Source of the DNA: Deltaproteobacteria bacterium
GTDB lineage: Bacteria; JAEEML01
Direction: 5' to 3'
NCBI GenBank assembly: GCA_016283195.1
Contig: JAEEML010000144.1
Location: forward strand, 1-59,640
DNA length: 59,640 nt
The notes beneath the pieces were generated by a model. That model had not been told where the DNA came from, searched no databases, and saw only the letters and a list, made by a program, of their open reading frames with translations. Both the position numbers and the translations under genes were made by a program. This document shows positions 55,008 to 59,640 of this stretch, piece after piece. The stretch's first letter is position 1; each line of letters starts with the position of its first letter.

Positions 55008-55120
55008 CGCCCGCCGCAGGCGGGCGGATCGCGCTGATTTTTCAAAATTTTACAGGGTACCCTGTATATTAGGTATTGAAAATACCTAAACCATTTTTCC
55101 GTGCCTATTGGCACAAGGAG
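55008..55120 (+). promoter_or_regulatory. Conserved promoter/leader module, copy A
   Basis: Four dyads in order: CGCCCGCC/GGCGGGCG (55008-55026), the palindrome ACAGGGTACCCTGT (55052-55065), TTAGGTAT/ATACCTAA with a TGAAA loop (55069-55089), and GTGCC/GGCAC (55101-55114). AAGGAG follows (55115-55120). A -35 candidate TTCAAA (55041) and a -10 candidate TATATT (55065) are 18 bases apart, with the palindrome in the spacer. Confidence 0.75.
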
Positions 55121-55126
55121 TGCAGT

Positions 55127-56068
55127 ATGAAAAAGTGTAAAGTCTTAGTTTCAGCAATGTTAACTCTCGCCCTCACGGCCTGCGGCGGTGCCGGTGAACA
55201 AGGGCCGGAAGGCAAGCAAGGCCCGCAAGGACTCAAAGGTGATGCCGGGAGCGACGGCCAACCGGGCAGCGATGGTGAAGGCTGTTATGTAGTGAAAAAA
55301 GATGCCGACCACGGCATTGTTATTTGCCCGGCCGATGGCTCATCATACGTTATCTACAGCCCGGAAAACTTGCCCAAAGCCAATGGTTTACCTAATGGCA
55401 ACGGCGGCTATCTTTACTGCAATGCCGGTTATTTTGGAGAAAGTTGCACCGCCTGCACCTGTGAGCGCGGCACTTGCAACGATGGCCTAAACGGAAGTGG
55501 TGAATGTTCTTGCTCCAGAGGTTACACCGGCAAAGATTGTTCCGTACTTGCCCTTGGTTACATGGCCGACACCAACGGCACCGCTTACAAAACAACCATA
55601 ATCGGCGAACAAATCTGGATGGCTGAAAATATGGCCAGCGATACAGCAACCGACGGCAGCTCAATCACTTGCTATGCCAATACCGACGCTGATCCGGATT
55701 TTGTGGAACATTATGGCTGCCTCTATAATTGGGAAGATGCCATGAAAGTTTGCCCTAAGGGCTGGCATTTACCAACACAGACCAATTTTGATGGCTTGCT
55801 AAATATTGCCGGCGATAACGCCCAAAACAAAACAGATAATCTGCGTTCCGCAACTTGGCTAAATGGCAATGACAGTCTTGGCTTTAATGCTCTTCCTGCC
55901 GGAGACAAGCTCAGTACCAATTACCTTCATTTTGGTACCGGTGCTCGCTTTTGGTCAGCCACAGGCAATACTACCCTCGCCTTCTACTTGGGGCTCGGTC
56001 CTAACAATGCTTATATGGACAGAACCGGCGTGGAAGCTGCTTTCTCCGTGCGCTGCATAAAAGACTAA
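55127..56068 (+). CDS. FISUMP-domain lipoprotein, array copy A
   Basis: The 313-aa product starts at the ATG at 55127, with AAGGAG 6 bases upstream. An in-frame TTG 17 codons earlier would translate the hairpins and is rejected. The lipobox is LALTAC (Cys19). Ten Gly-X-Y triplets follow (GEQGPEGKQGPQGLKGDAG and on). Next come a Cys pair (GCYVVKKDADHGIVIC) and an EGF-like unit (GYFGESCTACTC, CSRGYTGKDC). The FISUMP domain from about residue 157 has IGEQIWMAENMA, CYANTDADPDF, CPKGWHLPT, FNALPAG, and SVRCIKD. The N-terminal 140 residues are nearly identical to copy B. Confidence 0.88.
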   Translation: MKKCKVLVSAMLTLALTACGGAGEQGPEGKQGPQGLKGDAGSDGQPGSDGEGCYVVKKDADHGIVICPADGSSYVIYSPENLPKANGLPNGNGGYLYCNAGYFGESCTACTCERGTCNDGLNGSGECSCSRGYTGKDCSVLALGYMADTNGTAYKTTIIGEQIWMAENMASDTATDGSSITCYANTDADPDFVEHYGCLYNWEDAMKVCPKGWHLPTQTNFDGLLNIAGDNAQNKTDNLRSATWLNGNDSLGFNALPAGDKLSTNYLHFGTGARFWSATGNTTLAFYLGLGPNNAYMDRTGVEAAFSVRCIKD

Positions 56069-56084: not shown

Positions 56085-57335
56085 TTAATCAAGCAGACTT
56101 TTATCCAGCAAAAAGTTAATAATTCCAATTTGTTCTATGCCGTTTTCATCCCGCCGGAGTTTTATATTGTCGCGCGTGATAATGAGCTTTTTAAAACTAT
56201 CACCAATAATATTCAAAGGTCTTTTTTCCTGCCGGCTCTTGGCCTCCGTCTCTAAATAGAGCGCTGACTGAATATAATATTTTTGGCTCCCTTTACTGGC
56301 GATGAAGTCAATCTCCAGCTGCTTTTTGATAGTTTTGCCATTAGCCCCTTTGTCAAAAGTCTCTATAACTCCAACATCCACCGAAAAGCCGCGCGCTAAA
56401 AGTTCATTATATATAATATTTTCCATGAGATGGCTTTCTTCCGTCTGGCGAAAGTTAAGCCGGGCATTACGCAAACCAACATCTGCCAAATAATATTTGG
56501 CCGTGGCAGCTATATATCTCTTGCCCTTAATATCATAGCGCGACGCCTTTGAAAGCATGAAGGCATCCTCAAAGTAGCCGATATAATTCTTGATGGTGTG
56601 ATCGCTAATAGTCTTTTGTTTAACACTCTTAAAAGTTTTTGAAAGTTTTAGGGGATTAGTAAGCGAACCAACAGCAGATGACAAAATATCCAATAATTCA
56701 TCAAGTTCTACACTGTTGCGCACTTTGTGACGCTCAAGAATATCGGCCACATATACCTCTTTAAAGAGATTTTTGAGATACGCCGCTTTTTCTTCAACCT
56801 CAGTCAGGCTAAGGACATAGGGCATACCTCCGTAATTCAGATAATCATCGAAAGCTTCATCCTTAGAACCGGAATATACCGAAGAATATTCTGCAAAACT
56901 AAGGGGATAAACCCTTATCTCATCGCCCCTTCCACGAAACTCGGTGATAATATCGGAGGAGAGGAACTTGGAATTACTGCCGCTTACATAAACATCAACA
57001 TTCGCCAGATGCAAAAAGCCGTTAAGCGCCTCTTCAAAATTTTGTATAAATTGAATTTCATCGAGGAGCAAAAAATAATCGGAGGAATCTTTAAGCAAAC
57101 TGCTTACATGATTATAAAGGCTCTCGGCTGAGCGCAATGGTTTATTCCGAATATCATCAAGAGCTATTCTGATTATGTGGTCGGCCGCTATGCCGCTTTC
57201 CAGCAAATAGTTATAAAAAATGGTGTTCAAAAGATAGGACTTACCGCAGCGCCGTATGCCGGTTATAATTTTGATCAGCCCATTTTTTTGTTTACGAATA
57301 AGCTTTTGAAGATATATGTCACGCTTAATCTGCAT
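56085..57335 (-). CDS. AAA ATPase with DUF4143 domain
   Basis: The 416-aa protein has an AAA_14-type ATPase with Walker A ITGIRRCGKSYLL (about residue 25), Walker B YFLLLDEIQFI (about 90), sensor VSGSNSKFLSS, and the RGRGDEIRVYPLSFAEY segment. A C-terminal DUF4143 domain has YYLADVGLRNARLNFRQTEE and ENIIYNELLARGF, which resembles a nuclease-like fold (LEIDFIAS near 342). Members are widespread, often variably present, and of unknown function. It lies on the opposite strand between two FISUMP genes, preceded by two similar hairpins. Confidence 0.85.
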   Translation of the reverse strand: MQIKRDIYLQKLIRKQKNGLIKIITGIRRCGKSYLLNTIFYNYLLESGIAADHIIRIALDDIRNKPLRSAESLYNHVSSLLKDSSDYFLLLDEIQFIQNFEEALNGFLHLANVDVYVSGSNSKFLSSDIITEFRGRGDEIRVYPLSFAEYSSVYSGSKDEAFDDYLNYGGMPYVLSLTEVEEKAAYLKNLFKEVYVADILERHKVRNSVELDELLDILSSAVGSLTNPLKLSKTFKSVKQKTISDHTIKNYIGYFEDAFMLSKASRYDIKGKRYIAATAKYYLADVGLRNARLNFRQTEESHLMENIIYNELLARGFSVDVGVIETFDKGANGKTIKKQLEIDFIASKGSQKYYIQSALYLETEAKSRQEKRPLNIIGDSFKKLIITRDNIKLRRDENGIEQIGIINFLLDKSLLD

Positions 57336-57496: not shown

Positions 57497-57605
57497 GCCG
57501 CCGCAAGCGGCGATCGCGCCAGTTTTTCAAAATTTTACAGGGTACCCTGTATATTAGGTATTGAAAATACCTAAACCATTTTTCCGTGCCCATTGGCACA
57601 AGGAG
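57497..57605 (+). promoter_or_regulatory. Conserved promoter/leader module, copy B
   Basis: The same order as copy A: GCCGC/GCGGC (57497-57511), ACAGGGTACCCTGT (57537-57550), TTAGGTAT/ATACCTAA (57554-57574), GTGCC/GGCAC (57586-57599), then AAGGAG. From TTTTTCAAAATTTTACAG to the start codon it is almost identical to copies A and C. Candidate -35 TTCAAA is at 57526 and -10 TATATT at 57550. Confidence 0.75.
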
Positions 57606-57611
57606 CGCAGT

Positions 57612-58592
57612 ATGAAAAAGTGTAAAGTCTTAGTCTCAGTAGTGTTAACTCTAGCCCTAGCTGCCTGCGGCAGCGCCGGTGAGCAGGGGCCAGCTGGCCC
57701 AGAGGGCAAGCAAGGCCCGCAAGGACTCAAAGGCGATGCCGGCAGCGACGGCCAGCCGGGCAGCGATGGCGAAGGCTGCTATGTGGTGAAAAAAGATGCC
57801 GATCACGGCATAGTTATCTGTCCGGCAGATGGCTCTTCGTATGTCATCTATAGCCCGGAAAACTTGCCTAAATCCAATGGTTTACCTAATGGCCAGGGCG
57901 GCTATCTTTACTGCAATGCCGGCTACTTTGGAGAAAATTGCGCTGCTTGCACCTGTGAGCACGGCACTTGCAACGACGGCCTAAATGGAAGTGGTGAATG
58001 CACCTGTGCAGCCGGATATATCGGCAAAAACTGCGACATAGAAAACCTTCTAAAGTACAACAGCAAAATATATAAAGTGGTGCAAATTGGCGAGCAAATC
58101 TGGATGGCCGAAAATATGGCTACTGATACAGCCACAGATGGCAGCGCTGTGACTTGCTATGCCAATACCAACGCCGACCCGGTTTTTGTGGAAAATTACG
58201 GCTGCTTATATACTTGGGCTGATGCTATGAAGATTTGTCCCACCGGTTGGCGTTTACCGGAAAAAAGCGACTTCGATGACTTATTAACCTATGTGGAAAA
58301 TAATCGCACTAGCAGTAGCAACTTCTTGGCCCTTATAGCTAAAAGCACTGCTTGGACTGGGCACCAAAACCAAGGTGGTGATGACTTTGCTTTTTCTGCG
58401 CTACCAGCCGGTCGCAGGGGCGTCGATGGCAATTACAGCCTTTTTGGCACACTCACCGGTTTCTGGTCGGCTACATATAATGCTATCGGCACCGCCAACA
58501 CCCTGAGCATCAGTAGCAATAATAGCCCTACCGCCATTACAGGCACGACCGACAAAAGTCTCGCCTATTCCGTCCGCTGCGTGAAACAATAA
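57612..58592 (+). CDS. FISUMP-domain lipoprotein, array copy B
   Basis: The 326-aa product starts at the ATG at 57612. Lipobox LALAAC (Cys19). Eleven Gly-X-Y triplets, one more (GPA) than copy A. The EGF-like unit reads GYFGENCAACTC with CAAGYIGKNCD. From about residue 150 the FISUMP domain has IGEQIWMAENMA, CYANTNADPVF, CPTGWRLPE, FSALPAGRRG, YSLFGTLTGFWSA and SVRCVKQ. The first 140 residues are almost identical to copy A, while the FISUMP domain diverges. It is separated from the VapC-like gene on the opposite strand by 18 bases. Confidence 0.88.
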   Translation: MKKCKVLVSVVLTLALAACGSAGEQGPAGPEGKQGPQGLKGDAGSDGQPGSDGEGCYVVKKDADHGIVICPADGSSYVIYSPENLPKSNGLPNGQGGYLYCNAGYFGENCAACTCEHGTCNDGLNGSGECTCAAGYIGKNCDIENLLKYNSKIYKVVQIGEQIWMAENMATDTATDGSAVTCYANTNADPVFVENYGCLYTWADAMKICPTGWRLPEKSDFDDLLTYVENNRTSSSNFLALIAKSTAWTGHQNQGGDDFAFSALPAGRRGVDGNYSLFGTLTGFWSATYNAIGTANTLSISSNNSPTAITGTTDKSLAYSVRCVKQ

Positions 58593-58610: not shown

Positions 58611-58988
58611 CTATGGGCGAAATACCTCTACTGGCAAATCAGGTATCAACTTATAATGCTTATTGTTAGCGGTACAAAGCCTTTGGCCATACTGCACACA
58701 AGTCGCAGCAATCAGGGCATCGCCCATCTCCAGTGAATTCACCAGGAAAAAGCTTTCGACATAACTCAGCGCTTTTGCAGAAATTATCTCGTTCAGTTGA
58801 ATTATTTCAACATCAAGTTTTTTAAGCATTTTCTTAAAAATAGCCAGTTCCTGCTTATTTTTCATACCCTGCACAAGTTCCATATAGGTAACGGCGGAAA
58901 TACTAAAAGGAGCCTCAGCAAGAACTTTGCTCCTAGCATTTTCATTACCACGCAAAAACCAGATAAGCACATCAGTATCAAATATCAA
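58611..58988 (-). CDS. vapC: PIN-domain toxin, VapC-like
   Basis: The 125-aa PIN domain protein has the acidic active-site residues in IFDTDVLIWFLRG (Asp4), MELVQG (Glu near 37) and MGDALIAATC (Asp near 89), followed by LCTANNKHYKLIP. VapC toxins are Mg-dependent RNases that cut tRNA or rRNA. The likely start is TTG at 58988, overlapping the antitoxin gene by 11 bases. It lies 18 bases from the end of FISUMP copy B. Confidence 0.85.
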   Translation of the reverse strand: MIFDTDVLIWFLRGNENARSKVLAEAPFSISAVTYMELVQGMKNKQELAIFKKMLKKLDVEIIQLNEIISAKALSYVESFFLVNSLEMGDALIAATCVQYGQRLCTANNKHYKLIPDLPVEVFRP

Positions 58989-59480: not shown

Positions 59481-59568
59481 GCCTATTTTTCAAAATTTTA
59501 CAGGGTACCCTGTATATTAGGTATTGAAAATACCTAAACCATTTTTCCGTGCCCATTGGCACAAGGAG
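59462..59568 (+). promoter_or_regulatory. Conserved promoter/leader module, copy C
   Basis: Dyads as in copies A and B: GCCGCC/GGCGGC (59462-59476), ACAGGGTACCCTGT (59500-59513), TTAGGTAT/ATACCTAA (59517-59537), GTGCC/GGCAC (59549-59562), then AAGGAG. Candidate -35 TTCAAA is at 59489 and -10 TATATT at 59513. Confidence 0.75.
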
Positions 59569-59574
59569 CGCAGT

Positions 59575-59640
59575 ATGAAGAAGTGTAAAGTTTTAGTCTC
59601 AGTAGTGTTAACTCTCGCCCTCACGGCCTGCGGCGGCGCC
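59575..59640 (+). CDS. FISUMP lipoprotein, array copy C (5' end only)
   Basis: Only the first 22 codons are in the window. They encode MKKCKVLVSVVLTLALTACG, a signal peptide with lipobox LTAC, nearly identical to copies A and B. The upstream module is identical too. A third member of the array is therefore almost certain, but the FISUMP domain itself is not visible. Confidence 0.8.
   Translation, partial: MKKCKVLVSVVLTLALTACGGA

Follow-up and report, generated by a model that had tools for sequence, protein, structure and literature searches.

Three lipoprotein genes of one bacterial contig are each preceded by the same perfect palindrome, placed at a putative promoter, and this raises the question of whether the palindrome is a site for a DNA-binding regulator, part of an mRNA structure, or a by-product of the duplication of the genes. 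The window, meaning the whole stretch of 59,640 nucleotides that was analysed, forms a single contig in the 190-contig assembly of a 3.22 Mb genome. In this window three FISUMP genes form an array in which they alternate with genes for a DUF4143 ATPase and a PIN-domain protein on the other strand, and the two complete FISUMP genes scored 96.7 and 99.3 bits against PF09603 (cut-off 33.9). The DUF4143 AAA ATPase gene of the window (56085-57335) is 51% identical to one at L046:2923-4263, and in each of the two arrays the gene takes the equivalent place between FISUMP copies. PIN-domain genes likewise occur among the copies, at 58611-58988 of the window and at L042:1860-2258.

A 16-bp palindrome overlaps the putative promoter

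The elements TTCAAA and TATATT and the 18-bp spacer between them are identical across the three copies in the window, as an earlier sequence-only reading of this DNA had described. They were assigned as -35 and -10 elements by consensus alone, and together they match the consensus at 9/12 positions in 3/3 window copies, a score that chance sites also reach, such matches being common (12 found versus 7.2 expected by chance). The elements are nevertheless recognisable, and their spacing falls within 16-18 bp. The same reading had placed a 14-bp palindrome inside the spacer of all three array genes. Exact matches to this ACAGGGTACCCTGT motif were found at 55052, 57537 and 59500, all on the + strand, so the palindrome itself was confirmed; its length and its limits had to be corrected, since the perfect symmetry extends over 16 bp in each of the three copies and its 3' end forms the first two bases of TATATT. 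This site, O1, thus extends beyond the spacer into the putative -10 (Table 1).

Table 1. Features of the duplicated unit and of the lipoprotein genes in the window
Feature	Position	Strand	Sequence or content	Remark
GC-rich hairpin, copy 1	55008-55026	+	CGCCCGCCGCAGGCGGGCG, then GATCGCGCTGATTTTT	left edge of duplicated unit; possible insulator or terminator-like stem
Putative -35	55041-55046	+	TTCAAA, 4/6 to consensus	lost in copy C46
Operator dyad O1 (predicted)	55051-55066	+	TACAGGGTACCCTGTA, 16-bp perfect palindrome	symmetric G.C to C.G change in C82, C88 and C109
Putative -10	55065-55070	+	TATATT, 5/6 to consensus	18 bp from TTCAAA
Operator dyad O2 (predicted)	55069-55089	+	TTAGGTAT-TGAAA-ATACCTAA	straddles predicted start at ~55077-55079
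Leader stem-loop	55097-55120	+	TTCC-GTGCC-loop-GGCAC-AA-GGAG	predicted pairing with Shine-Dalgarno
Lipoprotein gene 1	55127-56068	+	signal peptide, collagen-like and EGF-like N-terminus, FISUMP domain (PF09603)	
GC hairpin, copy 2	57497-57511	+	GCCGCCGCAAGCGGC	
Module, copy 2	57526-57605	+	-35 57526-57531; O1 57536-57551; -10 57550-57555; O2 57554-57574; leader stem-loop 57582-57605	
FISUMP lipoprotein gene 2	57612-58592	+		
Module, copy 3	59489-59568	+	-35 59489-59494; O1 59499-59514; -10 59513-59518; O2 59517-59537; leader stem-loop 59545-59568	
Lipoprotein gene 3	59575-59640	+	start only	cut by contig end

A second dyad at the predicted start and a stem-loop in the leader

Two further inverted repeats follow O1, and both had been taken as hairpins of the mRNA leader. 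Both repeats exist, and one of the two assignments stands. If TATATT is the -10 element, transcription would start inside the loop of the first repeat, O2, so that the mRNA would contain the right arm of this repeat without the left; of the two hairpins, only GTGCC/GGCAC would lie in the leader. In the predicted fold of this 49-nt leader, UUCC pairs with GGAG and lengthens the GTGCC/GGCAC stem over the ribosome site. Every copy folded showed this apart from the first one of the window, in which the ribosome site is covered by a longer pairing with a U-run. The arms of the leader stem are identical in 9/11 exact copies, and three variant copies (C82, C88 and C109) have a different leader in which the stem is not kept. 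The predicted pairing of a U-rich/UUCC strand with the Shine-Dalgarno sequence is similar to that of FourU-like RNA thermometers.

The module follows one N-terminal family rather than the FISUMP domain

The palindrome has 11 exact copies genome-wide, compared with 0 for the reversed control. Searches with a 151-base query and with a covariance model derived from these copies both returned the same 11 together with three variants, at C82:37318, C88:17276 and C109:33917, which carry the symmetric core change ACAGGCTAGCCTGT. At C109 the left half of O1 is further decayed, and an additional decayed copy adjoins the module. The shared promoter module with its operator-like palindrome thus occurs beyond the array as well; its total of 14 places is a lower bound, since several copies lie at contig ends.

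All 14 modules are placed alike before a start codon or its remnant. When we listed the genes downstream, as the sequence-only reading had proposed, its expectation of FISUMP genes was borne out for nine of the 14 modules (two window genes, C138:1319, C87, C48, C49:1424, C88, C46 and C49:4521), among which the C46 gene is interrupted by a stop and the C49:4521 gene has its N-terminus deleted. It failed for C82, which precedes a Cys-rich lipoprotein gene with no FISUMP match, and for C138:2343, which precedes a decayed remnant; three modules are cut by contig ends (59500, C7 and C109). Since some modules precede genes without FISUMP, the predicted regulon is lipoproteins of certain families and not FISUMP as such. 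The genome holds 114 FISUMP domain matches, and the great majority of the ~85 gene starts inspected are without the module. The module and the collagen/EGF-like N-terminal family, on the other hand, match one to one.

Common descent and evidence of constraint

The homology among the copies has a sharp left boundary at the GC hairpin and continues into the sequence of the N-terminal domain, and upstream of the hairpin the copies differ at ~66% of positions. Because the copies share ancestry, the three array copies are not independent evidence of function, and the conservation of the module partly reflects recent duplication or gene conversion from one common ancestor. The GC-hairpin sequence CCGCCGCAGGCGG has 17 exact copies, and the hairpin is missing from the C82 and C88 modules. 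A dispersed repeat of ~160 bp terminates at the same hairpin in L246 (C125), L047 (C46) and L045 (C48), and therefore the intergenic regions are mosaics of repeats. In copy C49:4521 the leader GGCACAAGGA continues directly into a GGCACAAAGGAATGG-like site that lies within a FISUMP gene, an apparent microhomology deletion. At this locus (L046:4481-5046) the module and leader are fused to the middle of the FISUMP gene, and the predicted protein is without a signal peptide.

Detailed comparison of the copies pointed to constraint on the dyads. First, 24 consecutive columns, TACAGGGTACCCTGTATATTAGGT, show no change in 11/11 exact copies, although there is variation in the O2 loop, in the leaders and, at C46, in the -35 stretch. 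The amount of change differs along the unit: compared in pairs, the copies have a difference of 0 in the palindrome, of 0.09 in O2 and of 0.17 in the 16 bases before the palindrome, and at third codon positions of 23% in codons 1-22 and 45% in codons 23-145. A rough hypergeometric check on column counts gave 7e-4 for 17 invariant columns. Second, the symmetry of the site that overlaps the promoter is retained despite sequence change. Over the dyads the variant and main modules differ at four bases, which form two compensated pairs; the chance of this is ~2e-4 if the changes are independent, and the covariation vanishes when the partner columns are slid by 1-3. Besides the change in O1, a compensated A.T to C.G change in O2 is found in C49:1424, C82, C88 and C109, and C46 retains the arm change. 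This O2 variant occurs with either form of O1, so the O1 and O2 changes are separate events. Third, the inner positions changed in O1 could not pair in an RNA hairpin, the loop being too short, so the O1 change speaks for symmetric recognition of the DNA.

Quasi-palindrome template-switch repair can yield compensated changes without selection. The strongest alternative is passive descent, in which recent copying or gene conversion conserves the module, such repair keeps the palindromes perfect, and no dedicated regulator exists, the promoter being constitutive. The one-to-one match with the N-terminal family, the sharp homology boundary and mosaic copies, and the microhomology deletion copy all fit this account, as does the lack of a regulator gene near the copies (a transcription-factor-like gene lies directly downstream in 0/14). 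However, copies with an altered -35, loop and leader (C46 and C138:2343) still show no change in the 24-nt core, and the variant copies, which stand before different genes and differ in leaders and coding regions, retain both dyads. We consider passive descent unlikely overall, with a real chance of being right.

An operator-controlled promoter as the preferred reading

Judged from its sequence, the module is a real promoter-operator element that members of a duplicated lipoprotein family share, and an ordinary kind of control element. Of the two mechanisms offered by the sequence-only reading, the simple repressor site, that is, an operator that a dimer would bind, describes it best. Short perfect palindromes at which a bound dimer blocks RNA polymerase are typical of TetR-, GntR- or LacI-type operators, and a second dyad at the start site fits the same pattern. 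We suggest an operator-controlled, translationally damped promoter cassette that was spread by gene duplication, a proposal to which we give about an even chance of being correct.

In this proposal, the promoter would be of the sigma70 type, with a moderate match to consensus (TTCAAA, 18 bp, TATATT), and built around two DNA dyads, O1 (TACAGGSTASCCTGTA) at about -26 to -11 and O2 (TTAGGTMT-N5-AKACCTAA) at about -8 to +13, each of which would overlap a region contacted by RNA polymerase. A dimeric regulator would most likely bind O1, and the same or a second protein may bind O2. Centre to centre, O1 and O2 are separated by 20.5 bp, close to two helical turns, a geometry that makes binding to the same face of the DNA possible. 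The bound regulator would block initiation until a signal releases it, repression being presumed here rather than activation. After release, transcription would start near 55078 and give a leader of ~49 nt, whose sole hairpin is predicted by folding to pair with the GGAG ribosome site and would damp translation. The unit from the GC hairpin to the N-terminal domain was duplicated with a lipoprotein gene, and the C-terminal FISUMP domain diverged afterwards. As the sequences show, the module is therefore present before each intact gene of this N-terminal family that has an assembled upstream region.

We also considered a wider, rather doubtful extension, a portable cassette in a Myxococcota-like lineage into which diversified C-terminal FISUMP domains would be plugged, consisting of a GC-hairpin insulator, a promoter with two in-phase operators, a leader that occludes the Shine-Dalgarno sequence and a conserved surface-anchoring N-terminus. 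The GTAC- and CTAG-centred operator alleles might then mark two sub-regulons with paralogous regulators.

Alternatives to a DNA operator

The same repeats could act as RNA if transcription started further upstream, so that O1, O2 and the last hairpin formed three mRNA hairpins of one regulatory leader. A 77-nt segment does fold with z = -4.35, and O2 and the leader stem make good hairpins, but good folding is expected of any perfect palindrome, the co-changed inner pair of O1 sits in the RNA loop, and no match to FourU or any other Rfam covariance model was found at E up to 1. Moreover, the upstream part of the conserved unit holds no promoter-like site, only the GC hairpin followed by TTTTT. 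Two points favour reading O1 and O2 as DNA sites, namely that with TATATT as the -10 the mRNA would lack the left arm of O2 and that the O1 change affects inner positions that cannot pair, and we regard control by RNA as improbable.

At least as improbable is a mobile or recombination cassette, in which the GC hairpin and the palindromes are ends or exchange sites that spread lipoprotein genes, as in variable-antigen systems. This would agree with the abrupt left boundary of the main copies at the GC hairpin, with the occurrence of the hairpin before a second promoter type at other genes, and with a conserved front joined to a variable C-terminus; against it, no right end is conserved in all copies, and C82 and C88 dispense with the hairpin. 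The vmp genes of Borrelia hermsii are also a lipoprotein family with a conserved upstream/5' block and a variable remainder, but their 61-62 bp upstream homology block excludes the promoter and the silent genes are promoterless, whereas each copy of the module here carries its own promoter (PMC6011951). An arrangement of silent promoterless copies plus one expression site was not found here. The GC hairpin resembles REP elements as a short GC-rich extragenic palindrome, and differs from them in forming the edge of a promoter-gene unit. An integron attC reading of the hairpin was rejected, as no matching core sites were seen by eye, and an invertible promoter was rejected, as no inverted flanking arms were seen.

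MerR-type activation by untwisting of a long, dyad-bearing spacer, the other mechanism that had been proposed, is very improbable: the promoter is weak and its dyad lies between -35 and -10 as in Pmer of Tn501/Tn21, but the spacer is 18 bp rather than 19-20 bp (19 bp in Pmer), the dyad at about -26 to -11 is centred near -18.5 rather than about -23.5 and touches the -10 instead of lying clear of it at -31 to -16, a 19-bp reading would need TTTCAA, which matches the -35 consensus at 3/6, and mer promoters mutated to spacers of 16-18 bp are constitutively active and respond hardly at all to MerR (PMC11049809).

Searches beyond this genome

The module had no match in ~85,000 genomes of other species, plasmids and phages, collections that may omit the same or a very near genome; these searches comprised a pattern scan of genome contigs and blastn against plasmids and phages. 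A shorter pattern gave 92 viral matches, 0 of them with TATATTAGG, which we took as chance. Compared by protein, the closest relative among the collected genomes was the Myxococcales MAG UBA1203, at 30% over the full length. This genome is rich in FISUMP domains, with 36 matches, and the R1 model found no module in it, weak evidence that comes from one genome. The motif TACAGGSTASCCTGTA was not found in a literature search, which returned only 12-base matches in unrelated papers.

FISUMP proteins are a large and poorly understood surface family, as the number of domain matches in this one 3.2 Mb genome illustrates, and the shared operator marks a subset that is likely co-regulated and offers a defined 16-bp bait for finding the regulator. 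The mechanism is otherwise ordinary. The compensated changes indicate that, in paralogous promoters, sequence alone can help to separate a DNA operator from an mRNA hairpin.

Other promoter types and leaders at FISUMP genes

At L260:1390-1500 (C168), C187:2466-2566, C13:14258-14359 and C46:2903-2969 the same GC hairpin is followed by a second type of promoter. Its layout is TTTTT, 22 bp, TATATTAG, then AGTCTTATTGT-GTTA-ACAATAAGACT and CTCCCCTTGCAAGGGGAG, and in its inverted repeats, too, a change in one arm between copies is matched in the other, as where AGTCTTATTG becomes AGTATTATTG and the partner changes with it. Its spacer dyad (CCGGGCGCCGCTGGG) is imperfect and differently placed, and was not counted as evidence. 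Another set of FISUMP lipoprotein genes (C28, C106, C136, C139, C33 and C175) has a third leader in common, roughly TTTTTGTTTGGCTTTTAAGG. Finally, TTCAG pentanucleotide repeats of 3-10 units lie upstream of several other FISUMP genes, at L230 (C70:1254-1303), L228 (C68:3444-3478), L231, L243 and L253, and are candidate phase-variation tracts.
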